64,000 nt of DNA from Nitrospirota bacterium. GTDB lineage: Bacteria > Nitrospirota > Thermodesulfovibrionia > Thermodesulfovibrionales > UBA6898. The first letter of the stretch is position 1, and every line of letters begins with the position of its first letter. Made by a program: the position numbers and the translations under genes. The notes beneath the pieces were generated by a model, which worked only from the letters and a program-made list of their open reading frames with translations, did no database searches and was not told the origin of the DNA. The stretch is from NCBI GenBank assembly GCA_003252075.1, contig QKDO01000078.1:1-64000 (forward strand). The letters run 5' to 3'. Below are positions 46,428 through 64,000 of this stretch, in pieces.

Positions 46428-46440
46428 GTCAGCAAAGAAG

Positions 46441-46614
46441 AAGCATCAACGCGTGCATGCGTCAACGCGTGCAGGCGCGGAGGCGTAAAGACGTGCGCGT
46501 GCATGAAAGGCATAGCGCAATCACCGGCATGCTGTTCTCTCTTATTATGCATAACATCCATCTACGCCCTCACCCATAAACGATTTGACGCATATACGAT
46601 TGCACGTCTCTTCA
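46441..46614. repeat. Octamer-phase inverted repeat element, copy A
   Basis: Left arm: a GC dinucleotide recurs at exactly 46443, 46451, 46459, 46467, 46475 and 46483, in octamers such as ACGCGTGC and ATGCGTCA. Right arm: pyrimidine-CG phase at 46565, 46581, 46589, 46597 and 46605, with CC at 46573 and CA at 46613, in octamers such as TACGCCCT and GACGCATA. ATGCGTCA (46457-46464) is the exact complement of TGACGCAT (46586-46593). The right arm touches the end of the ABC ATPase gene. About 42 bases separate the arms. Confidence 0.78.
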
Positions 46615-47283: not shown

Positions 47284-47397
47284 ATCAATGTCCCTGTTTG
47301 AATGCCGTTCCTGTGTCGGTGACGGTGTATTTTTTGCATGTCAATTACCACAATATCAATATATTGCACTGTTCCATACTGATCGCAATCGCTGTCT

Positions 47398-48531
47398 TCA
47401 TGTTCTCATCACTGCATCAGGGTCAACGGTTGCCGCGCGCCATGACGGTATGACCGTCGCGGTAGTATAGGGTACCACCGTAAGGAATAACAACGTCGCG
47501 ATCTGGTAGAAGTTGATGAACGGGACCACCCGGAATTCCGGGTAGAGTACGGCCCAGCCTTTCATCACCGGCTCAAAAAGCGGGGCAGAGCTGACAAAGA
47601 CATGAATATAGGCCAGGATGAGACCGGATGTAAAGGACGTAAAAGATATTGCCATTCCCTCCCAGAACTTCATGAGGATGACATCCGACGTCTCCCACCC
47701 CGTTGCCTTGAGGATACCGATCTCACGCTTCTCCTCAGCGCTCAGGCCGGAAGCCTTGTCCCATGCGAAGATGACAAAGGCCAGCAATGCTCCGGAGAAA
47801 ATGACGAGCATGATCCCGCTCCTCCAGTCGAAGATGGCGTCATAGGTCCTGACGATCTCTTCCCTGACGATCGGCCGTGTGTCCGGCAGCTCTTTCCGTA
47901 TCTTGGCAGCTACCGTGAGCACCTCCTGCGGGTTGGCAACAGTCACGGCAAGATCAGTGACCCGGTCCTGCGGTATGCTGAAGAGGGTCCGGAAGTCAGC
48001 TTCTCCCATCATAATCAAGTCAGAGGAGATCAGTTCAGACTCCGACGGCAGGATTTCCTTAACCCGGTAACTCACCAGTTTGCCGTCACTCCCGAAGAAT
48101 GGCATGATATTGCCTTCAGAGGTCACGCCCGCGCGTGCCACCCCCTCCCCGATGGCAATGTCTCCCTCCCCGTATCTGAAGTCATCCGGCACCAGCAAGG
48201 TATAGTTCGCTCTAAACAGAGGGTCGTAATAGTATCCCCAGAGTCTCGGCCTGACCTCTCCTACTCCGGTGATATGACTCACCACCGTAGCATAGGATAC
48301 CGGCATAAGGTCATGCCTCCCTGCCACCATCCTCTGGAGCACGATCTCCGGAGCCTCCCGGAGTATGATGTCCGCCTCCCGTTTCAGCGCATGCGTGAAG
48401 AGCATGACTGAAGCAAGGACAAAGACGACCGCGGTATAGACAATGATCAGCGCCGCATTCTTGCCTTTTCTCCTCAGGAGCGACGAGAGCGTGAAGTCGA
48501 TCACATTCCGCTGTTTGTCTATCCAGGCCAT
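47398..48531 (-). CDS. ABC transporter permease, FtsX/MacB family
   Basis: A 377-residue membrane protein with an N-terminal helix (about 25-47), a periplasmic domain of about 190 residues (MacB-PCD-like), and three C-terminal helices (about 245-270, 297-320, 345-370) with EKREIGILKATGWETSDV between them, the coupling-helix motif of FtsX-type permeases. With the ATPase next to it, it forms a type VII ABC transporter. Substrate unknown. Confidence 0.9.
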   Translation of the reverse strand: MAWIDKQRNVIDFTLSSLLRRKGKNAALIIVYTAVVFVLASVMLFTHALKREADIILREAPEIVLQRMVAGRHDLMPVSYATVVSHITGVGEVRPRLWGYYYDPLFRANYTLLVPDDFRYGEGDIAIGEGVARAGVTSEGNIMPFFGSDGKLVSYRVKEILPSESELISSDLIMMGEADFRTLFSIPQDRVTDLAVTVANPQEVLTVAAKIRKELPDTRPIVREEIVRTYDAIFDWRSGIMLVIFSGALLAFVIFAWDKASGLSAEEKREIGILKATGWETSDVILMKFWEGMAISFTSFTSGLILAYIHVFVSSAPLFEPVMKGWAVLYPEFRVVPFINFYQIATLLFLTVVPYTTATVIPSWRAATVDPDAVMRT

Positions 48532-48605
48532 GTCAGTTCACAGCTCGCGGTACAAGGGCAATGCCTCTGTCCGTCCCGGTTTTCTTGCCATTCACCACTC
48601 CCTGA

Positions 48606-48905
48606 TCACCTGCCGATTTTTCTCACGGTCGCGGGCACCGGCACGAGCGAACCCGACGGAAAATGTTCGAACGAAAACGGGTAGTCCTGGAATGCCGTAT
48701 TGAGATCGGCCATGGAAGGATTGCGCGTGTAACGCGCCTCGGTAAAGAGACTGAGATCAGTCAGCCGGTACTGCCGCGCCAGCGCCGCATTCCGTTGAAG
48801 CCATGCTGCAGCAGCCTGCCGCGCTATTGCGGCATGCACTGCGAGTCCGGCCAAGGCAGCCAGGCTAAGCACAAGATATGCGAGATAGAGTGTCGATCTT
48901 CTCAT
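48606..48905 (-). CDS. Small single-pass membrane protein
   Basis: 99 residues from the ATG at 48905. A membrane helix (about 7-28, LYLAYLVLSLAALAGLAVHAA) is followed by a charged 70-residue periplasmic part with several conserved-looking aromatic residues (NPSMADLNTAFQDYPFSFEHFP). No named family is recognised. It is the first gene of the minus-strand ABC cassette, 74 bases before the permease gene, so it is probably a component or substrate of that transporter. The longer frame to 48941 runs into the repeat element and is less likely. Confidence 0.62.
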   Translation of the reverse strand: MRRSTLYLAYLVLSLAALAGLAVHAAIARQAAAAWLQRNAALARQYRLTDLSLFTEARYTRNPSMADLNTAFQDYPFSFEHFPSGSLVPVPATVRKIGR

Positions 48906-48927
48906 GCCGTCCGCAGGCAGTACGGAA

Positions 48928-49095
48928 AAGCGTGCATGCACATATGCACGACCAATCCACCTGCCGCCCGCTTTTCCGTTTCACCGACCACGTTGATACA
49001 CCCTGCTTTTCACGCTCCGTATGTCATGTTCTGTTCATTATATCTTAGAGAACCTTTGCGTGTTCACATTTCTTCGCGTTCATGCAAATGCGCTC
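48928..49095. repeat. Octamer-phase inverted repeat element, copy B
   Basis: Left arm: AAGCGTGC, ATGCACAT and ATGCACGA occupy 48928-48951 as three perfectly phased octamers. Middle: CG steps at 48969, 48977 and 48985. Right arm: pyrimidine-purine steps at 49059 (CG), 49067 (CA), 49075 (CG), 49083 (TG) and 49091 (CG) are exactly 8 bases apart. The right arm runs up to the last codon of the subtilisin-like protease gene. It is less regular than copies A and C. Confidence 0.65.
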
Positions 49096-51216
49096 TTACG
49101 GTATCTTCCGGAAATTCTGTCGCCTGACATTTTCACCGCTTACGGTCACAGCCCTGCTGCCCGGATCAAAGGTCTTGCCTGCCTTGCTCGGGGTCACCGC
49201 ATAGGCCCCGTCAGGCAGATTGCCGAAGAGGAAGCGGCCGTTGCTGTCCGTTTTTTTCGTCTTCGCGGCATCGCCGCTCAATGTTACGGTCACCCCAGCC
49301 ATGGGTGCCCCTGAGGGATTGCGCACATAGCCGATTATGGCGTGCGTGATTGCGGTGAAACCTTTTCCTTTCTTGTCAGCGCCGTTCAGGGTTATGCTCC
49401 GGGCCGAGGGCCTAAAGGCATACCCCGTCTTCGACGGCATCACTGTATAGGTGCCGTTGCCGAGTAGCGGAAAAACGTACTTGCCCTTGCCGTCTGTCAT
49501 GGCAATGGCAGACCCGTCACCGCCGAGCGTTACCATGACATCCGGGACAGCCCTGCCCGAGGCAGTGCGCACCTTGCCCGCGACCGCATAGACATTCGCC
49601 GTAATTCTTTTCACCTGAACGCTCGAACTGGTCACGGACAACGTCCTGACCGCAGGCGTGAAGGTGATTGCTGCCAGAGACGGGGTAATGTCATAGGAGC
49701 CGCTGCTAATGTCGACAAAGTTGTATGCGCCGTTGGCATCCGTAACCGTCGTCGCCGTGGCAGCCCCGCTCAGGGTAATGGTCACCCCCTCCACCGGAAC
49801 GCCGCGCGGCGATACGACCCTGCCGGATAGGGAGAAGGTGACATTGATCGCTGCGATCAGGTCTATCCTGGGCTTTGTAATGTTGTTCCGCGCGTCGAGA
49901 ACCGGCTTGCCCGTGGACGTCATCCGGGTAACGGTTTCGTCAGCGCTCTCCGCAGGGAATGCGCTCTTCAGCACAGCGATCGCCCCCGCAATGTGCGGTG
50001 CTGCCTGTGACGTGCCGGCCGCTGTTATACCTGCGGCGTTGATCATTGCGCCAGGGGCCAGAATGGTGAGGAAGCTTGCGCTGTTTGAGAAACAGGCAAC
50101 CTTGTCAGCGGCAGTAACCGTGTCCGTACACCGGACAGAAGGCCAGGATATGCCACCAACATTTGCGTCATACACGGCGCCTACAGAAACGCCATCCGGG
50201 ACGCATGCCGGATCTGATATGCCGTTGCTATACCCATCATTTCCTGAGGCTATTGCCGAAAGAATGCCCGCGTCCTTTGCGCTGGTCACGAGCGAGCTGA
50301 GGAAAGCGCCCGGACAGACGCTTGTATGCTTAGCGTCCTGAACTCCGAGGCTCAGATTGATGTCAACAATGTTATAAGTTGCTTTATTGGCAATCACCCA
50401 ATTAATCGCCTTCGCGATGACCGAAAAGCTTGCCCCGCTGCCATCAAAGACATCGAGCCCGAGGATCTTCGTGTCAGGCGCAACGCCGGCGACAATGCCC
50501 GAGACATTCGTGCCATGTCCGTTATTGTCAAGGGATCCATCATCAGCCGCGAAATCATGGACACAGGCGACCCTGCATCCTGACGGGGCCGGCGGAAGCG
50601 ATAAACAGTCCGCAGGCTGAAAGATATTGCAGTCGCCAAAAGCGGCACGGGTGTAATCGATACCCGTATCCAGGACCGCAACAGCAGTTCCGGCGCCGGT
50701 ATATCCTGCGGCCGCAACAGCAGGCTGCCCGATGAGCGGCAGGCTCTCGTTGAGGAAAAGCGAATACTTCCGGTTTTCGAAGATACCCACAACCTCCGGC
50801 TGAGCAGCCAGCCTCTCCAGCGCCTTTCGGGACTTCACTTTCAGGAAGATCACCGGCAGGTGGTCATAGTCCTCAATCATCTCGGCGTCATCGGTCGTCA
50901 GTACATTCAGGGCCTCCTGCTTCTTATTCCTGAAGATACGGGACTTTTCCCTGAGAATATCTGGCGTATCATGGTCTGCCCCGGAAAAAGCGCGGAGGGA
51001 AAGGGCTCGCTGCACTGCTTCGCTCTGGTCAAAGACAACGATGAGGTCCTGCGGTTCTCCGCGGACGGCCTTCTCCATGACCTCTGCATGACGCACCTTC
51101 TCCTGCCCGGGGAACGGCCCCCCGGACGCGGCAGCCGCTATCAACAGATGCAGGAAAAGGCCGGCGAACCAGACGATGAAGAAGGGCCGCAAGCTGTATT
51201 TTCTGGCAGAATGCAT
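49096..51216 (-). CDS. Secreted subtilisin-like serine protease (S8) with beta-domain repeats
   Basis: 706 residues from the ATG at 51216, which follows an AGGAG ribosome site and opens a signal peptide (about 12-31). A propeptide-like region (about 55-150) precedes the S8 catalytic domain, with D183 (LDTGID), H234 (NNGHGT), oxyanion N326 (SGNDG) and S403 (GTSQAAPH). From about residue 475 there are three carboxypeptidase regulatory-like beta domains (GRVVSPRGVPVEGVTITL, GKVRTASGRAVPDVMVTL, GYVRNPSGAPMAGVTVTL). Lying between the gspE-C operon and gspD, it is a plausible substrate of the type II secretion system. Confidence 0.94.
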   Translation of the reverse strand: MHSARKYSLRPFFIVWFAGLFLHLLIAAAASGGPFPGQEKVRHAEVMEKAVRGEPQDLIVVFDQSEAVQRALSLRAFSGADHDTPDILREKSRIFRNKKQEALNVLTTDDAEMIEDYDHLPVIFLKVKSRKALERLAAQPEVVGIFENRKYSLFLNESLPLIGQPAVAAAGYTGAGTAVAVLDTGIDYTRAAFGDCNIFQPADCLSLPPAPSGCRVACVHDFAADDGSLDNNGHGTNVSGIVAGVAPDTKILGLDVFDGSGASFSVIAKAINWVIANKATYNIVDINLSLGVQDAKHTSVCPGAFLSSLVTSAKDAGILSAIASGNDGYSNGISDPACVPDGVSVGAVYDANVGGISWPSVRCTDTVTAADKVACFSNSASFLTILAPGAMINAAGITAAGTSQAAPHIAGAIAVLKSAFPAESADETVTRMTSTGKPVLDARNNITKPRIDLIAAINVTFSLSGRVVSPRGVPVEGVTITLSGAATATTVTDANGAYNFVDISSGSYDITPSLAAITFTPAVRTLSVTSSSVQVKRITANVYAVAGKVRTASGRAVPDVMVTLGGDGSAIAMTDGKGKYVFPLLGNGTYTVMPSKTGYAFRPSARSITLNGADKKGKGFTAITHAIIGYVRNPSGAPMAGVTVTLSGDAAKTKKTDSNGRFLFGNLPDGAYAVTPSKAGKTFDPGSRAVTVSGENVRRQNFRKIP

Positions 51217-51445
51217 AGTCCTGGCTCCTGATGGCCTTGCCGAATCGAACGGATGAACAATCCAAAATGACAGTAACATTAATGAATTATATTAGTTATT
51301 ATTATATCACAAAGGACCGTGGGCACGGTATGAGAGGAGAAGCCAATACAATACAGCGGTCAGGGAAGAAGAATAAATACGGAATATATATGTGGAGCGG
51401 GCAGAGGCCGGGAATGCCTACCAGCGCACGGCGATAACGCATCCA

Positions 51446-53506
51446 TTACTGCGTTCCCGGGCTGTCAAGCCTCTGCTGGAGGTCCGTATCCATGCCCTTA
51501 TACTTGTTCACATAGTCGTTCGTCAACCCTGCTGCGTCATCCTGCGTCCGTATGACCCGCGGGGTGAGCAGGATAACCAGCTCGGTCCTGCTGTCGAGAT
51601 CTGACCAGTTGCCGAAGAGCCAGCCGATGAGCGGTATTCTGCTCAGGAACGGTATGCCCGACTTGCCCTTCGTAATGTCGTCCCTGATTAAGCCGCCGAT
51701 GATGATCGTCTGACCGTTCTGGGCAACAAGGTTCGTAGACGCCTCGGTCTTGTTCAGCGTCGGCGCCTCGTCGGTGCCGATAGTAACGGGAGCGCCGAGC
51801 GAGGAAACCTCCTGCGTGATCTCCATCGAGACAAGGCCGCTGTCATTCACCTGGGGCTTCACCTTGAGGATAATGCCGATGTCCTTATACTGTACCGTAC
51901 GCTGAATATCCGTTGTTCCGGTCACGTTCGTCGATGATGTTACCAGCGGCACCTGTTGGCCGACCTGTATCCGTGCCTCACGATTATCGGTCACAAGGAT
52001 ATGCGGCGCTGCAAGGACCTTTGCCCTCGACTCTGTAGCCAGGGCTTCGAGTCGTGCCCTGACAATGCCGGATGCATCAGTCGCAACGAATGAGAAGCCG
52101 GAGCTTGAAAGGCCTGTTGCATCGGCGGGAGGGGCATTCGATCCCATCGAGCCCGACAGGTTGAAATCATTGTTGAAGGGATGGAGGCTGAAATTCAGGT
52201 CCGTCTTCAAGGACCAAGCAAGTCCCATGGTGAGATTGTCCGTGAGCGTTACCTGGGCAATAAGGCCTTCGATCACCACCTGCCGCGGCAGGGTATCGAT
52301 TTTTTTGATCGTCTCTTCTATCAGTTCGTAATCACCGCGGGTTGAGAGGATGATTACGGTATTCGCAATCTCATCAGCGAATATCCGGGTAACGTCAGAA
52401 ACAAGCGAATCACCCGTCGGCACCCCTGCAATCTCGGGCGCAGCCTGGGGCTGCGGGGGCTGGGCCGGCTGACCCGGCGCCGGCGCCGCCGGTTTGGTCC
52501 CCGCTGCTGGACGCACTGACCCGGAAGACTTGCCCCCGAGGAATATCTGGTTCAGGATATTGACCACATCCTTTGCCTTGCTGTTCTGCACTGAATAGAC
52601 ATAGACCTGGGGCCGTATCCTCCTGAGCTGTTCGCTGTCAAAGAGCTCGATAAATCCCAAAAGGCGCTTCACATTCGATGCTGTGTCGATAATGACGATA
52701 TGGTTGCTTTTTGGCGCATCGATGATCTGCGCACTCGCCGACAGGAAAGGCGTCAGCACCTTCACGACGTCCGTGGAAGTCACATACCGTATCGGCACCA
52801 CCTGGATAACTGCCTTTCCGGTCAGCTGGATCTGGCTGGGGTCACGGCCCACTTCCATGCGCGCAGGCTCCCGCGAGATGTCAACCAATGGGATGATGCG
52901 GTAGAGCCCCGCATCCTCGACCACCGCAATGCCGTTCATGCGCAGGATGACCTCCATGAGCGGCAGTATGTTGTCCCGCGGTATTGGCGCAACAGACCGG
53001 TAGGTCACGCGCCCCTTCACCTGAGGGTCGATCACGTAGTTTACCTTGAGGATATCTCCGAAAATGGTCTGGACAACAGAAAAGACATCAGCATCGTCGA
53101 AGTTGAAACTTACATCTGGGGACCTTGGTTTTGCCGTGGGCCTGGCGTACGGAGCCGCTGCCGGTCTGCCCGGCTGCTGTGTTGCGGGTTGATCCGGTTG
53201 TGCCGCAGGCGGGATACCTGCTGCATGCGGTGCTTCAGGAGGTGTCTGCGTGGCTGGCGCTGCATTTTCCGGCTGGGCCGCCGGCTGCACAGGCTGTGCC
53301 GGCTCGGCTGCAGCCGGCAGCGGCGGCTGAGTGGGTACGGCCTCTTCCCCGGTCTGCGCCGGAGACTCCTCTCCCTCTGCGGTTTCGTCCACTGTCGCGG
53401 CATGCACCAGCAATGATGCGGGCATGGCAAGCAGGAACAGGACAACGATCAGAGAAATCTGCCGCAGCCAGGAAAATATTTTTTCTTTTCTATAGATACC
53501 TGTCAT
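51446..53506 (-). CDS. gspD: Type II secretion outer-membrane secretin GspD
   Basis: A 686-residue secretin. A signal peptide (about 14-36) is followed by a 100-residue Pro/Ala/Gln-rich linker, an N0 domain (SFNFDDADVFSVVQTIFG), N1-N3 domains and the C-terminal secretin domain with VPLVTSS, the VPFL-type gate region (IPFLSRIPLIGWLFG) and LVILLTPRVI. It forms the outer-membrane pore for the pseudopilus-driven export. It is on the strand opposite to gspE-C and about 6 kb away. The long Pro-rich linker before N0 is unusual for GspD. No pilotin or GspG gene is seen nearby. Confidence 0.93.
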   Translation of the reverse strand: MTGIYRKEKIFSWLRQISLIVVLFLLAMPASLLVHAATVDETAEGEESPAQTGEEAVPTQPPLPAAAEPAQPVQPAAQPENAAPATQTPPEAPHAAGIPPAAQPDQPATQQPGRPAAAPYARPTAKPRSPDVSFNFDDADVFSVVQTIFGDILKVNYVIDPQVKGRVTYRSVAPIPRDNILPLMEVILRMNGIAVVEDAGLYRIIPLVDISREPARMEVGRDPSQIQLTGKAVIQVVPIRYVTSTDVVKVLTPFLSASAQIIDAPKSNHIVIIDTASNVKRLLGFIELFDSEQLRRIRPQVYVYSVQNSKAKDVVNILNQIFLGGKSSGSVRPAAGTKPAAPAPGQPAQPPQPQAAPEIAGVPTGDSLVSDVTRIFADEIANTVIILSTRGDYELIEETIKKIDTLPRQVVIEGLIAQVTLTDNLTMGLAWSLKTDLNFSLHPFNNDFNLSGSMGSNAPPADATGLSSSGFSFVATDASGIVRARLEALATESRAKVLAAPHILVTDNREARIQVGQQVPLVTSSTNVTGTTDIQRTVQYKDIGIILKVKPQVNDSGLVSMEITQEVSSLGAPVTIGTDEAPTLNKTEASTNLVAQNGQTIIIGGLIRDDITKGKSGIPFLSRIPLIGWLFGNWSDLDSRTELVILLTPRVIRTQDDAAGLTNDYVNKYKGMDTDLQQRLDSPGTQ

Positions 53507-53845
53507 ATGGTCAAATAATCACTGTTTCACTATAAATTACCTATCAGGATGAGTCAACAATTTTTCTCAGCCCGTACAGCAAAAAGAGATGGTATGGCTG
53601 TTCTCCCTGCGAGTCCCGACCCCTCCCTTTCTTCCCATCCTTGTAATTCTCCTTCCTCTGCATCTGTCTTAGCATGCCGTTCTCCACGCTCTCGTCCATT
53701 CCTGCCGCAGCCAGGAGGCGGATGGGGGAAATAGGATAACCGCCTGATAAATAAGCAACCTCCTTGACAAATCCTCCACCCCTGTAGTTAAATGAACCGT
53801 TCAGCAAATTGACGTAAACCTATTGATAAAAAGGGGTACGAGCAG
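53507..53845. other. 339-base region without a recognisable gene
   Basis: Between gspD (leftward) and the broken small gene (rightward) I see no RNA gene, array or family-like protein. An open frame of 87 codons on the minus strand has no ribosome site and an unnatural composition. Both flanking genes must have promoters here, but no convincing -35/-10 pair stands out. Confidence 0.45.
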
Positions 53846-54207
53846 ATGAAATGACTCACGAAGGTCATCTCCGCTACCTTGGCCATGCTCTTCTTGCTTG
53901 CCAGCATGTCCGGGGTGTCTGCTCAGAGCATAGACGCGCTGGGTGATAGAAGAGCAGCGGCAAGGTCTTCATCGCTGCTGACGGCATCCGGTTCTATAAG
54001 ACACAGGATGTGGCCCAGGGTGATGACAGCGGGAAAACGGCAGCCGGAGCTTATTGGCTCAACGGCGACAGGGCTATCGCGTATGGGATACTTGGAGGCG
54101 TGGGAGTCACGACCGGAACTGCCTTTGCAGTGGGAAGCCACTGGAACGGCACCGGGGAAGGTCCCCTTGCAAGCCCATCGGGTTTCTCGGTCATTACAAA
54201 TAAATAA
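53846..54207 (+). pseudogene. Broken gene for a small secreted protein
   Basis: ATG 53846 follows AGGGG and is followed by AAA and then TGA (53852-53854). Ignoring that stop, the frame continues LTKVISATLAMLFLLASMSG with an AQ cleavage site, a perfect signal peptide. Around 53950 the similarity moves to another frame, which reads GKVFIAADGIRFYKTQDVAQ, then YWLNGDRAIAYGILGGVG and ends SVITNK at 54207. One nonsense codon and one frameshift therefore break a protein of about 120 residues. Its place next to the Wza gene suggests a role in exopolysaccharide or surface biology. The family is not recognised. Confidence 0.62.
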
Positions 54208-54239
54208 CACGTTCTCCGGAAAAGAAACTGCTATCTCCT

Positions 54240-55259
54240 ATGCATAGGCGAATTCTCAAGCTTTTTGCCACATGTCTTGTCCTGCTTGCTTCAGCATGCG
54301 GCGGCAGCGCTCCGGTAAAGGAACCGGCTGCAGCTGACCCTGCTGCGACCCTGGAGAACAGGAGGAAGGCCGAGAGGATGAACGAGGCACTCATGATGGG
54401 GGCTGCTTCGCAGCAGCCTCCTTTGGAAAACGCCTACCTGATCGGTCCCGATGACGTTCTTGAGATCGAGGCCTACAACGTCGAGGAGTGCAAAAAAACC
54501 GTGCGGGTGAACTCCCACGGCGACATCGCCCTTCCCCTTGTCGGCATTATCAATGTCAAAGGCCTAACCACGGCAGAGGTCGAAGCCCTCATCGCCAAGA
54601 AGCTCGACCGTTACGTTGAGGAGACCGTCGTCACGGTCTTCGTGAAAGAATACAAGAGCCAGCGCATCTCCGTGATCGGCGCCGTGAAAAATCCGCAGGT
54701 CTTCGCGGTCACAGGGCAACGATACCTGCTGGACATGCTGATGATGTCGGGCGGCCTCGATGCCGGGGCAGGCAACATCTGTTATATTGTCAGGCCTGTG
54801 CTCGCAACCACGTCATCCAACAGGTCAGAGACCATCGTCGTGGACCTTGACGAGCTCATCCTGCAGGGAAACCTCTCGCTGAACTTCCCGGTCTTCGCCG
54901 GCGATATCGTGAATGTCCCGCGGGGCGCCATCTTCTTCGTCGACGGCGAAGTGAGGACGCCCGGCGTTTACACCATGAAGGGAAAGACATCGCTCATCCA
55001 GGCCCTCACCATGGCGCAGGGCATCGGAGAGAACGCATCGCTCGACGAAGTGCGCATCCTGCGCGACAACGGGAAGGGCGAACGGGATACCATAACAGCC
55101 GACTACGAAGAGATCCGGAACGGCGAAAAGCCTGATATCATGATAGCGGAAAATGATATAGTCATCGTACCGAAGAGCGGGGCAAAGGCCTTTTTCAATG
55201 GCTTCGTGCGGACCCTCCGCGGGGCCGTGAGCTTCGGCGGCGCAAGCGTGGGTTTCTGA
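54240..55259 (+). CDS. Polysaccharide export lipoprotein (Wza family)
   Basis: A 339-residue outer-membrane polysaccharide export protein. It begins with a lipoprotein signal peptide whose lipobox is LASAC (Cys20), followed by a Poly_export domain (about 65-150, YLIGPDDVLEIEAYNVEE) and two SLBB-type repeats (VIGAVKNPQVFAV and FVDGEVRTPGVYTM). It forms the outer part of the export channel that works with the Wzc-type kinase encoded 3 bases downstream. No GumB- or exosortase-specific features are visible. Confidence 0.94.
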   Translation: MHRRILKLFATCLVLLASACGGSAPVKEPAAADPAATLENRRKAERMNEALMMGAASQQPPLENAYLIGPDDVLEIEAYNVEECKKTVRVNSHGDIALPLVGIINVKGLTTAEVEALIAKKLDRYVEETVVTVFVKEYKSQRISVIGAVKNPQVFAVTGQRYLLDMLMMSGGLDAGAGNICYIVRPVLATTSSNRSETIVVDLDELILQGNLSLNFPVFAGDIVNVPRGAIFFVDGEVRTPGVYTMKGKTSLIQALTMAQGIGENASLDEVRILRDNGKGERDTITADYEEIRNGEKPDIMIAENDIVIVPKSGAKAFFNGFVRTLRGAVSFGGASVGF

Positions 55260-55262
55260 CCA

Positions 55263-57566
55263 ATGGCTGAAGACAACGTTACTACCCCGGAAGAAAACAG
55301 GAACAGGGAACTCGACAAACCGAGGGAATATCCTCTGGGACCGGCCGCTTATTATCCTGCGCCCGAGGATGAGATCCATCTCAGGGACTATCTCCAGATC
55401 ATCCTGCGGCGGAAATGGATCGTCATAACCGTTCTGGTCACGGTGCTGACCACGGTCACGATCGGAACCTTCATGATGAAACCCCAGTACCGGGCAACCA
55501 CGATGATCAAGATAGAGATGGATAAGGTGAACATCCTTTCCTTCAACGATGTCTACCAGGCCCAGATGACGAGCGAGGACTCTTTCCAACAGACCCAGTT
55601 CAAGGTCCTGAAATCGCGGAATCTGGCAAAACGGGTAATCCGGAAGATGAAGCTCGACGCAAGCCCTGAGTTTTCCGGTCAAAAGCGGGAAGCCAGGCAG
55701 GCCGCCTTTCTCAAGAAACCAGATGCCGTGGACGAAGGCATCGATTCCTCGCTCGTCGACGGCTTTATCGGCCGCGTCGAAGTAACGCCCCAACCGAGAT
55801 CCAGTCTCGTCAACGTCAGCTTCACCTCCTATGACCCGGATATGGCGGCAAATGTGGTCAATGCATTGGCCAAATCCTACATCGACCTGAACATCGAGTC
55901 TAAATACGAGGCCACGCAGCAGGCCCGCGAATGGCTCGAGAGACAGCTTGAGGCGATGAAGGCAAAGGTCGAGCAGGCAGAGGAGAAGCTCAACCAGTAC
56001 GCGGGCAAGAACGAGATCATCTTCCTCGAGACAAAGGTGGACGATGACGGCAAGGGCGGATCAGAGAACCTCGTCACCAAGAAGCTCGCTTCGCTTTCGA
56101 CCGAGCTCATCGCAGCCACTTCCGAGCGCATCCAGAAAGAGGCCCTGTATAACGAGCTCAAGGCAGGCGATGCAGAGTCGAGTTCCCTCGTGATGAACAG
56201 CCCGCTCATGCAGACATTGCGGAAGGATGCCGCAGCACTCGAATCCGAATACAACCAGAACCTCAAGATCTATAAGCCGGACTACCCGAAGATGGTGAAG
56301 CTCAAGGAGCTGATCGACCAGATAAACAAACGCATGGCGACGGAGGCGAAAAAGATCGTCAACAGTACCCGCAAGGATTTTGAGGCTGCCGTAAAGAAAG
56401 AGGGCTATCTCAAGGCAGCCTTTGACAAGCAGAAGCAGGAAGCGCTTGAACTCAACAACCGCGCTGTCCAGTACCTGATCCTGAAGCGCGAGGCGGACAC
56501 GAACAAGGAGCTCTATAACGGCCTGCTCCAGCGACTCAAGGAGACCGGCATCTCGGCAACCCTCAACTCAAGCAACATCCAGATCCTCGACAAGGCCGAA
56601 GTACCGAAGGGGCCGTTCAAGCCCAACCGGAAGCGCAACATCCTGCTTGCGCTGATCGTCGGGCTGTTCGGCGGCGTTGGCCTGGCCTTCTTCACCGAAT
56701 ATATCGACAACACCATCAAGACCCCTGAGGACATCGAAAAAAGGATGTTCATGCCCTCCCTCGGCATCGTGCCCCTGTATGCCGCTGCCCCGGCGGCCAA
56801 GGCCGCCCGAGACCGGAAGAAGAATGGACCCCGGAAGGCAATTGCCCGGCCCGCGGGCAGACTGTTCCCGGTGGAGTACATCAGCCATCTGGACAGCAAG
56901 AGCCAGTTGAGCGAGGCCTATTCGTCGATCCGCACGTTCCTCCTCTTTTCTTCCGCAGGCAAGCCTCCCAAGGTAATGATGGTCACCAGCCCCCGAAGGG
57001 AGGAAGGGAAAACAACCACGTCCATCAATACGGCGGTCAGCCTCACGAAATCCGATGCAAAGGCCGTGCTGATCGACGCGGATATGAGAAGGCCGCGCCT
57101 GCACAAGATCTTCAAGGTGAGTAACGGAAACGGGCTTTCGTCGTTCCTGTCGGGCAATATTGAGTTCGACGACGACCTGATCAAACATACCGACATTCCA
57201 AACCTTGACGTGATAACATCCGGCCCGCTTCCGCCCAACCCGGCAGAGCTGCTGAGCTCCTACCGCCTGCGGGAACTGATAGACGTGCTCTACCCGCTGT
57301 ACAGCTTCATCATCATCGACACGCCTCCCCTGCTCGGTCTTGCCGATGCGGCGATAGCGAGCACCCTTACTGACGGCGTCATCCTTGTCGTCAAGTCAGG
57401 CTCGACGCCCAGGGATGCTGCGGTCCAGGCAAAGAAGGTCCTTGAGAGCGTCAATGCAAAGGTCCTCGGCGTGGTGCTCAACGCCATAAACGAAAACAAC
57501 CTCCGGTACGGCTACTCCTCCTACTACCAGTATTACTATCAGAACTACACCAGCGATGAAAAATGA
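55263..57566 (+). CDS. Polysaccharide co-polymerase / tyrosine autokinase (Wzc family)
   Basis: A 767-residue bacterial tyrosine kinase. A Wzz domain with its first membrane helix (about 55-75) and a long periplasmic coiled coil (about 210-440) leads to a second helix (about 460-480). The cytoplasmic kinase domain has Walker A' SPRREEGKTTT (K583), the Walker A-like DADMRRPRLH and Walker B FIIIDTPP, and ends in a tyrosine cluster (YGYSSYYQYYYQNY). It controls polymer length and export by cycles of tyrosine phosphorylation, opposed by the PHP phosphatase encoded at 62609. The stop overlaps the next gene by 11 bases. Confidence 0.95.
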   Translation: MAEDNVTTPEENRNRELDKPREYPLGPAAYYPAPEDEIHLRDYLQIILRRKWIVITVLVTVLTTVTIGTFMMKPQYRATTMIKIEMDKVNILSFNDVYQAQMTSEDSFQQTQFKVLKSRNLAKRVIRKMKLDASPEFSGQKREARQAAFLKKPDAVDEGIDSSLVDGFIGRVEVTPQPRSSLVNVSFTSYDPDMAANVVNALAKSYIDLNIESKYEATQQAREWLERQLEAMKAKVEQAEEKLNQYAGKNEIIFLETKVDDDGKGGSENLVTKKLASLSTELIAATSERIQKEALYNELKAGDAESSSLVMNSPLMQTLRKDAAALESEYNQNLKIYKPDYPKMVKLKELIDQINKRMATEAKKIVNSTRKDFEAAVKKEGYLKAAFDKQKQEALELNNRAVQYLILKREADTNKELYNGLLQRLKETGISATLNSSNIQILDKAEVPKGPFKPNRKRNILLALIVGLFGGVGLAFFTEYIDNTIKTPEDIEKRMFMPSLGIVPLYAAAPAAKAARDRKKNGPRKAIARPAGRLFPVEYISHLDSKSQLSEAYSSIRTFLLFSSAGKPPKVMMVTSPRREEGKTTTSINTAVSLTKSDAKAVLIDADMRRPRLHKIFKVSNGNGLSSFLSGNIEFDDDLIKHTDIPNLDVITSGPLPPNPAELLSSYRLRELIDVLYPLYSFIIIDTPPLLGLADAAIASTLTDGVILVVKSGSTPRDAAVQAKKVLESVNAKVLGVVLNAINENNLRYGYSSYYQYYYQNYTSDEK

Positions 57567-58857
57567 GCTTCGGTGGCAGCGGGGTTCTGCGGTAAGCCTC
57601 GGCCTTTCTGTCATCGCTCTTCTCCTGTATCTCCTGCTCCTGATCCCTCTGGCGCAGCAGGCAGCCGGCTGGTATTTTTTCACCCGCGCCTCCGAACGCG
57701 GCCTGATTTCCGCCGCCCGCTATGACGGGCAGAACGAAATCTATCCCTATCTGCTCGGCAGGCTGTACCTGATGAACATCGAGGACCCCGCGCCCGAAAA
57801 GGCGATCGCCTATTACCGAAGGTCCATTGCGCTCAACCCGCTCCAGGCAGGCGCCTGGACAGAGCTCTCGCGGGCATATCACCTGAGTGGAAAGGACAGC
57901 GATGCAGAGCAGGCGCTCGAACGGGCCGTGACGCTGAGCCCCAATGATTCCGGTCTCATGTGGGACGCCGGCACGTTCTGGCTTATGAACGGCAACGTGG
58001 ACAAGGCCTTTGGCGCATTCAGGAAATACCTGCTCATCGAGCCGGACTTTCAGACCATGGTCTACGACCTTTCCTGGAAAGTCCAGCCGGACAATGCCTA
58101 TATTCTCAAGAACCTGGTGCCTGAAACCTACGATTACCAGTCAAAGTACCTTTCCTATCTCATCAGCGCGAAAAAGACCGACGAGGCGCAGGCCGTATGG
58201 AGGACCCTTGACCAGGGCAGCCTGCAGAAGGGGGACTTTGTCTCCTATGTCAATTTCCTCATAACCAACGGTCTGTATGATCAGGCTGAGGCGGTCTGGA
58301 AAGACATCACCGGGAAGATCGAAGGGATGGTAAAAGAAGACAGCGCGTCGCTTCTCTGGAACTCCGGGTTCGAGAATGAATTGCTGAACGGCGGTTTCGG
58401 CTGGAGGGTCAGGGAGACTGAAGGGGTCAAGGTCTTTTTGGACGAGTCTGTGCATATGGCCGACAGGCGCTCTCTTGGCGTGCTCTTTGACGGCAAACAC
58501 AACCCGGACATCGCTTTTGCCACCCAGATCGTCAGGGTGACCCCCGGCGCGGCCTATCTGCTCAGGGGGAGCATAAAGAGCGATGCGCTCACGACTACGA
58601 ACGGCATATTCCTGCAGGTTCTGGGACATGCCTGTACCGGCCTCGACGAGCGGTCGGAAGTGATAACCGGCACAACCTTCTGGAGAGAGGTAACGCTCGA
58701 CTTCGAGGTCCCGTCGTCCTGCAGCGCTGTCGTGGTCATGGCGCGGAGGGAGCGGTCGAGCAAACTGGACAATAAAATAGAAGGGACAGCATGGATAGAC
58801 GGTATGGCGCTGAAACAGCAGGCGCCCACACAGACGAACAGCTCAAAAAAGCATTAG
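57556..58857 (+). CDS. TPR-repeat membrane protein of the exopolysaccharide locus
   Basis: A 433-residue protein with an N-terminal membrane helix (about 12-35) and at least two tetratricopeptide repeats (about 60-150, for example AIAYYRRSIALNPLQAGAW and AEQALERAVTLSPNDSGL). The C-terminal 170 residues are beta-rich (LWNSGFENELLNGGFGWRV, then a jelly-roll-like stretch), like carbohydrate-binding-type folds. The protein probably sits in the inner membrane facing the periplasm, as a scaffold for the export machinery. It overlaps its upstream neighbour by 11 bases and its downstream neighbour by 67 bases. Confidence 0.82.
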   Translation: MKNELRWQRGSAVSLGLSVIALLLYLLLLIPLAQQAAGWYFFTRASERGLISAARYDGQNEIYPYLLGRLYLMNIEDPAPEKAIAYYRRSIALNPLQAGAWTELSRAYHLSGKDSDAEQALERAVTLSPNDSGLMWDAGTFWLMNGNVDKAFGAFRKYLLIEPDFQTMVYDLSWKVQPDNAYILKNLVPETYDYQSKYLSYLISAKKTDEAQAVWRTLDQGSLQKGDFVSYVNFLITNGLYDQAEAVWKDITGKIEGMVKEDSASLLWNSGFENELLNGGFGWRVRETEGVKVFLDESVHMADRRSLGVLFDGKHNPDIAFATQIVRVTPGAAYLLRGSIKSDALTTTNGIFLQVLGHACTGLDERSEVITGTTFWREVTLDFEVPSSCSAVVVMARRERSSKLDNKIEGTAWIDGMALKQQAPTQTNSSKKH

Positions 58858-60317
58858 CCGTCATCGGCCTTTCCTATAAGGGAGCAGCGCCGGAGGTGCT
58901 CTTTGCGCAGGCGATCCGCTGCTTCGAGGGGCTGATGGACATCTCCCGCGGCACTGATGCGGTCAGGGACTTCGCCCGGCGTAACGAACTTGACATCAAA
59001 TATCTGGTGGATGGCGCTAACTTTGTCATCTCGAAGATGCACTTCAACCCGGAGGAAAACTTCTACGTCACGCTCGGTCTTCCCATGAGCGCCGCCCCGG
59101 AGGAGATCAGGCAGCGCTGGAAAAGGCTCATGCTGCTGTACCATCCTGACATACAGACCGGGGACGAGGAATGGGTATCTGAACGGGCAAAAAAGGTCAA
59201 CGAGGCATACAGCACCCTGAAGGACGATACTAGACGTTCGGAGTATGACCGGAGACTGTCTGAAACGCAGCAGAACAGCCGCTACCCGTCCTACGCGCAA
59301 CATCAGAGGGAGGAACTTTACCGCGCCAAATCGTCGAGGCAGTTCCCGCCGCGCCGCAGGATGTCCTTTCAGGAATCATCGGTATGGGACCGGTTCGGGA
59401 AATACCTGCCAAAGGCCATGATCGGGATCTACGTTCTCGTGGCAGCAGCCTTCCTGCTGTACATCTACCAGCAAAACCGCTCATCAACACTTGAGTCTGA
59501 ACTCTTTGCCCGGAGACCGCTCCCTCAGCAGATGACAATGCCGGAGCAGGTGCCGCAGACAGAGCTCCCGATTCTTCCTGCCCTGGGGAAAAGTGCCGGA
59601 TCTGCAGCTCCGCGAGAGCAAAAGATGATGGTGTCTCCAGCCCTGCCCGTGAAAAGACCCGTTCCATCCGTTACAGCCGGAGGTGTTGGCCCGGACAGGA
59701 CAGCACCTTCCCAGAAGGAGGAAAAAAAACCCGATGCATCCGCGGCAACACCCGGGTACCGGACAGAGAACAGGGGAGCTACCCTTTCCGTGCTGTCTTC
59801 TTCCGTATTAGCTGCGGCTGTGCAGGAAAAGGGACCTGAGCCGCGACCTGCAGAACAGGGAGTCCCCGAACTGCAGAGATCTACCATCAAAAAGGAGCAG
59901 CCTTCTCCGGTGACAGCCGAGATCAGACCGGAACAGCTTTCGCAGCCGATGGAGGCGGGGATCACCCGGGAAGAGGTCAACGCATTCATGCAGCAGTACA
60001 TACGGGCCTACACGCAGAACGACCTTGAAGAGTTCATGGCCCTATTTTCGCCTGCAGCCGTAGAGAACAACACCATGGGTTATCAGGAGATCAGGATCGC
60101 ATACCAGGAGACCTTCAGGGAAAAAATCACTGACTACCGGATCCTGAACATGGACATCCGTGCCGACGGACAGAAGGCCACCGTCTCGGGCACGTATAGC
60201 ATGAACCGATATAGGTCACGTGAGGGCCGCTGGGTGAGGCATACCGGGAGGATCACCTGGAGACTCGCGCGTGAGAACAGTCATCTGAAGATCGTGAGCA
60301 CAAACTATGATAACTAG
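58791..60317 (+). CDS. Membrane DnaJ-domain protein with C-terminal NTF2-like domain
   Basis: A 508-residue protein. A cytoplasmic J domain lies at about 88-155 with the HPD tripeptide at 118-120 (LLYHPDIQ). A single membrane helix follows near 208-227, then about 160 residues of low-complexity Pro/Glu/Ser-rich linker and an NTF2/SnoaL-like domain in the last 120 residues (NAFMQQYIRAYTQNDLEEFMALF). The order implies that the J domain is cytoplasmic and the NTF2 domain periplasmic. The start at 58791 overlaps the TPR gene by 67 bases; a later start is not obvious. Function in the locus is unknown; recruiting DnaK to the export machine is a guess. Confidence 0.8.
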   Translation: MDRRYGAETAGAHTDEQLKKALAVIGLSYKGAAPEVLFAQAIRCFEGLMDISRGTDAVRDFARRNELDIKYLVDGANFVISKMHFNPEENFYVTLGLPMSAAPEEIRQRWKRLMLLYHPDIQTGDEEWVSERAKKVNEAYSTLKDDTRRSEYDRRLSETQQNSRYPSYAQHQREELYRAKSSRQFPPRRRMSFQESSVWDRFGKYLPKAMIGIYVLVAAAFLLYIYQQNRSSTLESELFARRPLPQQMTMPEQVPQTELPILPALGKSAGSAAPREQKMMVSPALPVKRPVPSVTAGGVGPDRTAPSQKEEKKPDASAATPGYRTENRGATLSVLSSSVLAAAVQEKGPEPRPAEQGVPELQRSTIKKEQPSPVTAEIRPEQLSQPMEAGITREEVNAFMQQYIRAYTQNDLEEFMALFSPAAVENNTMGYQEIRIAYQETFREKITDYRILNMDIRADGQKATVSGTYSMNRYRSREGRWVRHTGRITWRLARENSHLKIVSTNYDN

Positions 60318-61803
60318 CATCTTAGCGTTCATCATCATGGTGTCGGCGCTTCTGTTCGGCGCCGTCGAGATATGGTCATCGACAGCCGTGCTCGCCCTCG
60401 TGTACACCCTCGGCCTCATCTGGATCCTGAAGCGGGAATACGCTGCATACCGGACACCAGTCCATACAAAGCTCCTGATCGTCGCGGGTTTCGCCTTCAC
60501 GCTGTACGTCCTCCTGCAGACCATACCCTTCCCGCTAGTCGTGCTGAAATATCTGTCCCCCGGATCCTATCGGCTCAGGGAGTTTTACACTCCCGGGCCT
60601 GCAGGCCCGGGTGCAATCAGCCTTGTTCCCTACCGGAGCCTTCTGGAAGCGTTGAAGGTCGTTGCCTTCCTTACGGTATTTTCAGTAGCAGCTATCTATT
60701 TCATCAGCAGGGACAGGCTGAAGGACTTCGTTGTCGCACTCTCTCTCTTCGGCTTCTGTCTCGCCGTCTTCGCCATTGTACAGAAGGCCTCCTGGAACGG
60801 CAGGCTCTACTGGGTCAGGGAACTTACCATGGGCGGAAAACCCTTCGGCCCCTTTGTCAACCGGAACCACTTCGCCGGCTTCATCGGCATGATCATACCC
60901 CTGACCCTGGGGCACGCCATCACAAAGCACTCCCGTGAAAAGAAGATCCTCTACGGTTTTCTCGCGGTCATCATGTCGGTCGCGCTCTTCTTCTCCCTAT
61001 CCCGGGGCGGCATCGTCAGTTTTGTCTCGGGAATGGCGCTCTTCGGATTTCTCCTTTTCGCCAGCAGATACCAGCAGAAGAAGGTATGGATCATCGGCGT
61101 ATTCATCATCGCGGTCCTGACCTATCTCGCCTGGCTCGGCATGGACCCGATCATGCAGCGCTTCACCCAGGCGGACATCACGAAGGAACAACGGCTCATT
61201 GTCTGGTCGACAACGCTCACCGCAGCAAAGGACTTCTGGTTGACCGGTTCAGGGCTCGGGACATTCCTGCACATATTCCCGCTCTACGCCCCGGCATCGG
61301 TGCAGGGCGGCATCTACGACCACGCCCACAACGACTACCTCGAATTCCTGCTCGAGGCAGGACTTGGCGGCAGCATGCTCCTGGTCTGCTTCATTGCTCT
61401 TCTTCTCTGGTATGCCTTCAGAAGCACCTTCGAAGGCAGGTCCGGCATCATGCTGATGGCTGCCCTTTCATCGGCGATGAGCATGGCAGTGCACAGCATC
61501 TTTGACTTCAACCTCCACATCCTCTCGAACCTGCTCCTCTTCGGCACGGTGCTCGGCATGGTTGCAGCGCTCTCCGATGCAGTTGACCCGCATCCTCCCA
61601 CGGAAAACGTGCAGAAGTCCATGATCAGAGAAACCGGGGCCGGAGGCAGAGGTGCCGGGTCTTCTCAGAAAGACCTGCCGTTCAAAGGCGAAGGGTTCAG
61701 GGCAAAAGGCAGTCCAGAGTCAGCAGATGGTGCGCCGCGCGCAGGGGATGATACCGGGAAAGCGTCAGAGGAATGGGAAAAGGAAGGAGAAATAAATCGG
61801 TGA
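60307..61803 (+). CDS. O-antigen ligase/polymerase family protein (Wzy/WaaL type)
   Basis: A 498-residue inner-membrane protein with about ten to twelve helices. The Wzy_C-type region contains NRNHFAGFIGMIIPLTLG, SLSRGGIVSF and the periplasmic loop HAHNDYLEFLLEAGLGG, all typical of O-antigen polymerase/ligase proteins. The last 70 residues are charged and of low complexity. In this locus it probably polymerises or attaches the repeat units exported by the Wza/Wzc pair. It overlaps the J-domain gene by 11 bases and the next gene by one base. Confidence 0.9.
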   Translation: MITSILAFIIMVSALLFGAVEIWSSTAVLALVYTLGLIWILKREYAAYRTPVHTKLLIVAGFAFTLYVLLQTIPFPLVVLKYLSPGSYRLREFYTPGPAGPGAISLVPYRSLLEALKVVAFLTVFSVAAIYFISRDRLKDFVVALSLFGFCLAVFAIVQKASWNGRLYWVRELTMGGKPFGPFVNRNHFAGFIGMIIPLTLGHAITKHSREKKILYGFLAVIMSVALFFSLSRGGIVSFVSGMALFGFLLFASRYQQKKVWIIGVFIIAVLTYLAWLGMDPIMQRFTQADITKEQRLIVWSTTLTAAKDFWLTGSGLGTFLHIFPLYAPASVQGGIYDHAHNDYLEFLLEAGLGGSMLLVCFIALLLWYAFRSTFEGRSGIMLMAALSSAMSMAVHSIFDFNLHILSNLLLFGTVLGMVAALSDAVDPHPPTENVQKSMIRETGAGGRGAGSSQKDLPFKGEGFRAKGSPESADGAPRAGDDTGKASEEWEKEGEINR

Positions 61804-62363
61804 TGCGCTCACGCTTGACCGCGTTGATCCGCGCATGCCATCATCCGCGCGGGCAACTGCAAGCGGTTGCGTACGCTTTCTTGCTCTTGTATATTCTCTC
61901 ATGGTTTCTGCCGGCTTCCGAAGTTGCTGCCGATCCCGCAGTAAAAAGCCCTGGGACAAAGACCGTGGTCATCCGGAAGCAGATGGACGCTTCGCGCGGC
62001 ACGCCCGCCGGGAACGTCCGTGCCGTATTCACGGTCGAGGTTGCTGCGGACGATGCATTGCGGGAAAAAGGACTTTCCGGCAGGGACAGCCTTCTCCCTG
62101 ATTCGGCCATGCTCTTCGTCCTCGAACCGGGCAGGCCGGTCGCCTTCTGGATGAAAGATATGAAATTCCCGATTGACATCATTGTCTTCGATAAAGACAG
62201 GAAAGTCATCTCGGTCATGAAGAACCTGCAGCCCTGCATACAATGCACGATTTACAACGTTTCCATTCGCGCCGCCTATGCCCTCGAGATAAATGCAGGT
62301 CTGACAGAGAAGATCGGCATCTCCATAGGTGACCGCTTCTCTCTGGAAGAGAGAAAGCGTTGA
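61803..62363 (+). CDS. DUF192-family secreted protein
   Basis: About 186 residues from the ATG at 61803 (TGATG overlap with the previous stop). After an N-terminal hydrophobic segment (about 22-40) comes the DUF192 domain, marked by VEVAADDALREKGLSGR, MLFVLEPGRPVAFWMKDM and FPIDIIVFDKDRKV. The function of DUF192 is not established. The last codons (AGAAAGCGTTGA) already belong to the phased octamer repeat that follows, so the natural C-terminus may have been changed by the repeat. Confidence 0.85.
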   Translation: MRSRLTALIRACHHPRGQLQAVAYAFLLLYILSWFLPASEVAADPAVKSPGTKTVVIRKQMDASRGTPAGNVRAVFTVEVAADDALREKGLSGRDSLLPDSAMLFVLEPGRPVAFWMKDMKFPIDIIVFDKDRKVISVMKNLQPCIQCTIYNVSIRAAYALEINAGLTEKIGISIGDRFSLEERKR

Positions 62364-62596
62364 TGCGGTAGGGTCATCATGCGTACATGGGGGAATGCGT
62401 CAAAGCGGAGGGCGCGAAAGCGGAAAAGGAAGAAAGATAAAAGCGTTTATACGCGTATGCTATTATGCAATGAGATAAAAGAAATGACTTGCCCACATCA
62501 TATGCATAAGACTGATTATCGTCCCACGCTTCGCTGCTTCTTCGCTTTTCCGGTGATCTGCATCCGCACTTGTACGCATATTCGATTTCACGCAGT
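62354..62596. repeat. Octamer-phase inverted repeat element, copy C
   Basis: Left arm: G occurs at 62357, 62365, 62373, 62381, 62389, 62397 and 62405, five of these seven as GCG; after a one-base slip the phase continues at 62112-type spacing on 62112+300, that is 62412, 62420, 62428 and 62436. Right arm: pyrimidine-purine steps occur at nine consecutive 8-base intervals (62527, 62535, 62543, 62551, 62559, 62567, 62575, 62583, 62591), six as CG. ATGCGTACA (62379-62387) is the exact complement of TGTACGCAT (62571-62579). The left arm begins inside the end of the DUF192 gene. Confidence 0.82.
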
Positions 62597-62608
62597 TGGA
62601 GCCTGCTC

Positions 62609-63322
62609 ATGATCGACATCCACTGTCATATACTGCCGGAAATGGACGACGGCCCCGTGGAACTCGAAGCGACCATGAAGATGCTCAGCATGGCCGAAGA
62701 CGACGGCATCAGCCACATCATTGCAACTCCCCATTACCAGTGCCAGGATGTGCCCACGATGCAGGACATTGATGACCGTGTCTCCCTTGTCCGGGAAGAG
62801 ATGGATAAGAGTGGGTTGCGCATCGAGCTCCTGAGGGGAGCAGATGTCCGGCTAACCTATGAACTGCTCGATTGCATATCCCGGCATGCGCTCCCGACGC
62901 TAAACGGCTCTCGGTATTTCCTGCTCGAACTGCCTGACCTCCTGCCGCCGCATTTCGATGAGCTCATCTTCGAGGCAAGGTTGAAAGGATACGTACCGAT
63001 TGTCACCCATCCCGAGCGCAACTACACGCTGCTTGCATCGCCCCGGCGATCAGAGCTGCTCAGGGAATCGGGTGCCCTGCTCCAGATCACCGCCATGAGC
63101 ATAACCGGTGAATTTGGAAAACAGATAAAGAAATACGCGCTCCAGCTCCTCAAGATGGGCTGCGTCGATTTTGTCGCATCCGATGCTCACAGCACGAACC
63201 GCAGGGTGCCGGTCCTTTCGCGGGCCTACCGGGAAGTATTGGAATTGCTGAACAAGGAAGCGGCCGGGAAGATATTCATGGAAAATCCCGCGGCCGTTAT
63301 TGAAAACAGAGAGATACTATGA
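62609..63322 (+). CDS. PHP-type protein tyrosine phosphatase (CpsB/YwqE family)
   Basis: 237 residues from the ATG at 62609, preceded by GGAG and opening with MIDIHCHILPEMDDGP, the family start with metal ligands H5 and H7. Other metal-site motifs are IIATPHY, VTHPERN and ASDAHS. CpsB-type enzymes dephosphorylate the tyrosine cluster of the Wzc-type kinase and so control capsule or exopolysaccharide synthesis; the matching kinase is encoded at 55263. The frame is open further upstream, through the repeat, but that part has no similarity. Confidence 0.95.
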   Translation: MIDIHCHILPEMDDGPVELEATMKMLSMAEDDGISHIIATPHYQCQDVPTMQDIDDRVSLVREEMDKSGLRIELLRGADVRLTYELLDCISRHALPTLNGSRYFLLELPDLLPPHFDELIFEARLKGYVPIVTHPERNYTLLASPRRSELLRESGALLQITAMSITGEFGKQIKKYALQLLKMGCVDFVASDAHSTNRRVPVLSRAYREVLELLNKEAAGKIFMENPAAVIENREIL

Positions 63323-63330
63323 AAAGGCAT

Positions 63331-63470
63331 ATGCGCAGAAGTGTACATGCGATTATGCGAAAAGGAAAGAAGGAAGGGCAGTTGTATTCACGCTTTTACT
63401 CTTTTTCGCTTCTTGTACGCTTCTTCACGCTCACGCTTCCGCGCTCTTTCGCGTATGGGCATGTACGCGT
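63331..63470. repeat. Octamer-phase inverted repeat element, copy D
   Basis: Left arm: G occurs at 63333, 63341, 63349, 63357, 63365, 63373 and 63381, with GC at 63333, 63349 and 63357. Right arm: CG at 63391 and 63407 with CT at 63399 between, then CA at 63426 and CG at 63434, 63442, 63450 and 63466, again 8 apart with one gap. GTACATGC (63343-63350) is the exact complement of GCATGTAC (63459-63466). It fills the gap between the PHP phosphatase and the NusG-like gene. Confidence 0.74.
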
Positions 63471-63482
63471 ATATATTTTAGT

Positions 63483-63968
63483 ATGAACTGGTACGCTATC
63501 TACACCAAGCCCTCATGCGAGGACTCTACCGCTCTACACCTGAGGAACGCCGGCATTGAGGTCCTGAACCCGAAGATACGCATAAAGAAATACCTGCGCG
63601 GGAAATATCTTACAGTCGTAGAACCTCTCTTCAAGAATTACCTCTTCGCCTCCTTTGACAATGAACGGCACAACCAAATGATCCGGTTCACCCGCGGCGT
63701 GAAGTACATCGTTGGAAAAGAGAACCCAATCGTCGTGCCGGTCGAGATCATCCGTGCGATCAGCGAGCATATGGGTGAGGACAGCATCATCACCCCGGTC
63801 CCTGAACCGCTCAGCAAGGGCGACCGCGTGCTGGTCAAGGAAGGTCCCTTCGCAAATTTCTACGGCATTTTCGAGCGGGAGATACCGGGCAGGGACCGCA
63901 TCGTTATCCTGATCGAGGCCCTCAACTCCCGGCTCGAGATTGAGGATGTCTCGGTCAGAAAAGCCTGA
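63483..63968 (+). CDS. NusG-like transcription antiterminator (RfaH/UpxY type)
   Basis: 161 residues from the ATG at 63483. The NusG N-terminal domain (MNWYAIYTKPSCED, VEPLFKNYLFASFD, RFTRGVKYIVG) and a C-terminal KOW domain (KGDRVLVKEGPFANFYGIFE) are both present. Specialised NusG paralogues of this kind let RNA polymerase read through long surface-polysaccharide operons. Its position here suggests that it controls the rest of the exopolysaccharide locus beyond the window. The frame is open back to 63300, but that stretch is repeat sequence and PHP gene end. Confidence 0.93.
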   Translation: MNWYAIYTKPSCEDSTALHLRNAGIEVLNPKIRIKKYLRGKYLTVVEPLFKNYLFASFDNERHNQMIRFTRGVKYIVGKENPIVVPVEIIRAISEHMGEDSIITPVPEPLSKGDRVLVKEGPFANFYGIFEREIPGRDRIVILIEALNSRLEIEDVSVRKA

Positions 63969-64000
63969 ACGATTTTCCGCCTCTCCTCTTGGTGGTCCTT

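Follow-up and report, generated by a model that had tools for sequence, protein, structure and literature searches.

The spacer between a DUF192 gene and a CpsB/CapC gene in the window, a 64-kb stretch of a Nitrospirota genome (G000), is occupied by an array of degenerate octamers with two inverted arms (element C), and the window holds two further elements of this kind (A and D). We consider that element C probably belongs, as an old example, to a class of intergenic tandem arrays with a period of 7 to 8 bp that first expanded through step-wise duplication and later decayed at a near-neutral rate. An earlier note on this DNA had described a recurrent intergenic array of degenerate octamers with inverted arms; this description proved to be real, with three secure elements in the window.

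Gene boundaries were taken from open reading frames. The DUF192 gene upstream of element C occupies positions 61899 to 62363 on the plus strand (its start codon is uncertain, and the frame is open from 61773), and the CpsB/CapC gene, which lies at 62609 to 63322 on the plus strand between elements C and D, served as the synteny anchor. By phase, shuffle, and polarity tests, the left arm of element C (62354 to 62450, plus strand) consists of purine-rich degenerate octamers of about RRNGCGTA or GCGTRAAN, and the right arm (62520 to 62596, minus strand) consists of pyrimidine-rich octamers of the NTTYACGC type; the sequence between the arms (62451 to 62519) is without octamer phase. Two phased runs that had been claimed for this element were exact to the base: G recurs every 8 bases in the left arm, at 62357, 62365, and so on to 62405 (7 of 7 positions), and pyrimidine-purine steps recur every 8 bases in the right arm, from 62527 to 62591 (9 of 9). 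Both runs are rare in 2,000 dinucleotide-preserving shuffles of element C, with p = 0.0125 for the 7-step G run and p = 0.0005 for the 9-step pyrimidine-purine run, and the lag-8 maximum of the element was reached by 0 of 2,000 dinucleotide shuffles. Lag 7 was not raised, and the period is 8. The phase, which had been called strict, is so only inside the runs, since the register slips by a single base near ∼62412 and again near ∼62443.

When the 64 kb were scanned blind at lags 2 to 24, the three highest lag-8 scores came from the windows at 63347 (element D), 62394 (element C), and 46419 (element A), and the strongest lag-8 windows coincided exactly with three intergenic elements at 46.43 to 46.62, 62.35 to 62.60, and 63.32 to 63.48 kb. 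For both 46430 to 46625 and 63323 to 63478, none of 2,000 dinucleotide shuffles reached the lag-8 maximum. The left arm of element A lies at 46439 to 46502 on the plus strand (AACGCGTG CATGCGTC AACGCGTG CAGGCGCG GAGGCGTA) and its right arm at 46556 to 46625 on the minus strand; element D, located upstream of a NusG-family gene (63483 to 63968, plus strand), has its left arm at 63328 to 63380 on the plus strand and its right arm at 63386 to 63470 on the minus strand (TTCACGCT TTTACTCT TTTTCGCT ...). The unit consensus is roughly GCGTRAAN on the left arms, which are GCG-rich and 61 to 72% purine, and NTTYACGC on the right arms, which are the reverse (29 to 40% purine). Tandem Repeats Finder returned just one short 16-base unit, inside element A; elements C and D gave no call, as the units are too dissimilar. 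Of the four copies counted in the earlier note, three (A, C, and D) stand, and the fourth is not secure: a doubtful eroded copy before DUF192 (61795 to 61890, no strand assigned) is not significant by itself (p = 0.15 in the shuffle test), and a lone right-arm candidate at 49054 to 49101 (minus strand) is weak. At the junction before DUF192, clear octamers are found in the relatives MnB_6 and G002.

The G000 assembly comprises 2.86 Mb in 146 contigs, of which 409 kb were sampled in full, with pattern searches run over the whole genome. Six strong lag-8 regions were detected in the 409 kb, four of them in the window, compared with 0 to 1 strong regions at each of lags 5, 10, 11, 13, 17, 19, and 22. 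The pattern searches yielded further octamer copies after dinB (contig C29) and after a gene read as adenosylhomocysteinase-like (C19).

Among strict pairs, 9 paired arms were convergent (GCGTRAAN...NTTYACGC) and 0 divergent, although the loci were partly picked by unit pattern and some pairs are orthologous across species, so that 9:0 does not amount to nine fully independent events. Any inverted repeat will to some extent show the shared left/right polarity noted earlier; the non-trivial point is that all pairs are convergent and none is divergent. The arms are related to each other as arrays of a motif, and neither is a mirror copy of the other. Octamer order was mirrored between arms in 0 of 12 elements by matches and in 1 of 12 by duplex energy at p < 0.05, and with the left-arm units in random order the arms matched equally well in 12 of 12 and paired equally well in 11 of 12. 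What the arms have in common is thus a motif and its orientation; their sequences are not mirrored, and no specific pairing is maintained. A purine-strand rule over all 7/8-bp arrays was no more than a trend (odds ratio, 3 to 3.5; p about 0.05 to 0.06); for octamers alone, G-C skew gave an odds ratio of 8 (p = 0.04). We also considered all-frame stop codons, supplied by the TRA motif, as the purpose of the arrays. TRA is present in 45 of 62 unit consensuses versus 29.5 in shuffles, but AGC and CGC are enriched as well and gene orientation is inconsistent across families, and we rejected this idea.

As the earlier note had suggested they might be sought, octamer elements recur in related genomes. 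By CpsB protein identity, the nearest relatives are Nitrospiraceae bacterium UBA6898 (94%), UBA6905 (78%), and Nitrospirae MnB_6 (67%). Among 60 relatives, GCGTRAAN octamers are abundant in G001, G002, G005, G007, and G018, and GGGTGAAT-type octamers occur in some other families of the order. The strict octamer pattern is patchy, being found in 13 of 198 genomes of the phylum; in a genome of a distant family (G134), a plus and a minus match lie ∼115 bp apart in convergent order. With no unit assumed, lags 7 and 8 were in excess in the sampled sequence, whereas lags 5, 10, 11, 13, 17, and 19 were not. In all, 79 arrays were called, 51 heptamer and 28 octamer, with diverse units (TTCACGCT, ACCCATTT, AGCTTGCC, GTAATGG, TGAGCTA, GTAAGGG, GAACTTT, and others), and heptamer arrays are present elsewhere in the genus. 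Fresh arrays were found in G002, a member of the same genus, where TTCACGCT, ACCCATTT, and AGCTTGCC are each repeated 12 times at 90%, 92%, and 88 to 90% agreement, respectively. These arrays display higher-order duplication, and a 45-base block is duplicated in two adjacent G002 spacers and occurs nowhere else in G002 at comparable length. The GCG/ACGC columns of the unit are less variable than the others, even in fresh arrays. At one G002 locus (contig C16, 158000 to 177000), successive spacers carry a cluster of fresh octamer arrays with two or more unit types (TTCACGCT/ACCCATTT and AGCTTGCC). Dense heptamer arrays (TTTGAAC, GATGGCT, CCGTAAT, TGAGCTA), several of them with inverted arms and as many as 8 within 20 kb, were observed at loci in G050 and G058.

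Orthologous junctions differ in whether, and with what, they are filled. The DUF192-CpsB gap measures 245 bp with the array here and about 232 bp in UBA6898, and in G002 it measures 225 bp and is filled by a different octamer array; it is 61 bp in UBA6905, and the genes overlap or are separated by 0 to 55 bp in MnB_6, G004, G003, and G008. At the element A junction, G001 carries octamers of the same polarity that are not alignable with ours, in flanking DNA that is 81% identical, and at the dinB stop codon arrays begin in G000, G005, and G001, each with different units. Between G000 and UBA6898/G005, 29 of 516 sites had changed in the three elements versus 19 of 251 fourfold sites (p = 0.34), so that the elements diverge about as fast as fourfold sites and the selection for spacing raised in the earlier note is not borne out. 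The indels between these two genomes were of 15 bp and 1 bp, and no gain or loss of 8 bp was seen in the three best-aligned orthologous element pairs. Copying in increments of 8 bases, as had also been proposed, is plausible as an origin, given the fresh arrays in relatives, but was not caught as an 8-bp step in those pairs. Of two G005 sites compared into the G000 genome, one yielded no orthologue.

We propose that such arrays would start in spacers by step-wise duplication of a 7- to 8-base unit, through slipped-strand synthesis or unequal exchange of units, as the fresh arrays suggest; young arrays would also duplicate in larger multi-unit blocks, of the kind seen in relatives. Growth would then stop, and point substitutions accruing at a near-neutral rate would account for most of the decay, as the closest species pair indicates. 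The 8-base phase would outlive this drift, as substitutions leave the register unshifted: an old array can keep its phase because substitutions outnumber indels, and selection for spacing is not needed. Both arms carry one unit in convergent orientation, so placed that on either side the purine/G-rich strand leads away from the flanking gene and into the spacer, and the fixed polarity may reflect a strand-asymmetric origin, linked, for example, to transcription or replication. This account is supported by the specificity for lags 7 and 8, the fresh arrays, the near-empty spacers, the unalignable junctions of the same polarity, the rates, and the unmirrored order. Against the account stands the count of 9 convergent versus 0 divergent pairs, which a neutral origin does not itself predict; the less variable GCG/ACGC columns, the conservation of the element D left arm, and the lack of an observed 8-base gain or loss between close relatives also count against it. 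In our view, the complete element does not serve a conserved function in G000.

The octamers could instead be phased sites for a directionally loading DNA- or RNA-binding protein, with convergent arrays serving either gene side (for example, as a boundary, nucleoid, or termination site). This would account for a conserved core with variable positions, for the fixed convergent polarity, for the occupation of the same junctions by differing sequence in different species, and for the conserved element D left arm. We regard it as unlikely, however, as array-free spacers are frequent at a given junction within the genus, the elements diverge overall at a near-neutral rate, and the many unrelated units in one genome offer no single motif for one protein. 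Quite improbable, in our estimate, is a long imperfect RNA or cruciform hairpin formed by arm pairing, such as a bidirectional terminator or mRNA stabilizer. The arms are inverted, pairing of the consensus is possible, and 20-nt arms at 62379/62560 are 80% complementary, but RNA fold z-scores of the three elements against dinucleotide shuffles were ordinary (−0.54, −1.39, and −0.35), shuffling the left-arm octamer order left pairing equally good, many arrays have one arm only, and no Rfam family matched above its gathering score in 46300 to 64000. With fold energies ordinary and octamer order unmirrored, we rejected the hairpin; membership in a known RNA family was rejected for want of an Rfam match. 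G-quadruplex formation is impossible, as neither strand of the three elements carries a G3 or G2 quadruplex pattern.

Spread by transposition as a miniature mobile element (MITE- or REP/REPIN-like) with octamer-array ends was already disfavored and is the least probable of these alternatives. The elements are dispersed and intergenic, with inverted ends and fixed polarity, and orthologous sites are filled in some genomes and nearly empty in others, as a mobile element would leave them. Yet a DNA search of the whole G000 genome with the element returned only itself, with none of the several near-identical full-length copies expected of a MITE, and the copies have no common center or end sequence. 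A REP/REPIN system with its RAYT was rejected because arrays are abundant in G001, where no Y1 transposase match was found. No direct repeats of the CRISPR type (identical, at least 21 bases, with spacers) were found, which excludes a CRISPR. The view that the element is neither a microsatellite nor a CRISPR, nor a REP with an accompanying transposase, was thus upheld.

The decaying tandem array that we favor has several counterparts. In cyanobacteria, STRR sequences are tandem degenerate heptamers in intergenic DNA, with many unit families per genome. The arrays described here are alike in being tandem, degenerate, short, and intergenic with many families per genome, although STRR are heptamers and, to our knowledge, do not take the form of octamers with paired convergent arms. 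REP/BIME/REPIN sequences with RAYT (Y1) are also intergenic, dispersed, and inverted; here, in contrast, there is no REP hairpin, Y1 genes are not needed, and the arms are tandem octamers. TAACTGA direct repeats occur in Beggiatoaceae, Cyanobacteria, and Bacteroidetes (MacGregor 2015, PMC4679880) and are likewise short tandem units in intergenic DNA, frequently located immediately upstream of start codons, with a patchy taxonomic spread. In marine Beggiatoaceae, however, the unit is an exact heptamer in 2 to 6 copies, and related heptamers seldom repeat (PMC4679880), whereas our units are degenerate. The closest anatomy is that of the convergent degenerate heptamer repeats GGGAATC/(GGGANTN)n in Xanthomonas and GGGGA(C/T)T in Nostoc, for which Rehm et al. 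gave no established function and cited polymerase slippage as a hypothesis (PMC4692102). Like these, our elements comprise convergent arrays in one spacer and occupy the same junctions with different sequence in relatives (here, the dinB 3′ end and the element A junction), but the period is 8 and not 7, the unit is about GCGTRAAN, the host belongs to the Nitrospirota, G tracts capable of forming quadruplexes are lacking, and erosion in the own genome is much more advanced. We file the element beside the Xanthomonas-type repeats as an octamer, quadruplex-incapable variant and do not place it within the heptamer family. The earlier label of "undescribed" holds for the octamer form in Nitrospirota, of which we found no earlier description in the open-licence literature, but not for convergent degenerate arrays as such; as far as is known from that literature, the 8-bp form without quadruplex potential in Nitrospirota is new.

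Discussion of convergent heptamer arrays has so far centered mainly on G-quadruplex formation. That quadruplex-incapable octamers share this anatomy and polarity, at conserved junctions and with rapid turnover, points instead to a common process of origin, and one genus offers a natural series for its study, with fresh, old, and nearly empty spacers. A bolder proposal, to which we assign a low probability, is that 7- to 8-base units are laid down in fixed register and direction relative to both flanking genes by a sequence-tolerant process that operates in several bacterial phyla, with the octamers here as a second step size; if true, the direction rule would be independent of G-quadruplexes.

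The left arm of element D is 81% identical to its MnB_6/G001 orthologue, compared with ∼50% at fourfold sites (p = 2e-5). This segment (63323 to 63384 in the window) lies upstream of the NusG-family gene, which is next to CpsB and an O-antigen-ligase-like gene. Its position and conservation make a leader or promoter role possible, and the arm may have been co-opted there. Y1 transposase gene fragments with internal stop codons are present at 2461 to 2616 in the window and on contig C121 of G000 (64237 to 64473). In G018, contigs C65 and C357 bear nearly the same octamer-containing sequence near their ends, and C361 gives a similar pattern match, so that a longer repeat may span these three contigs.
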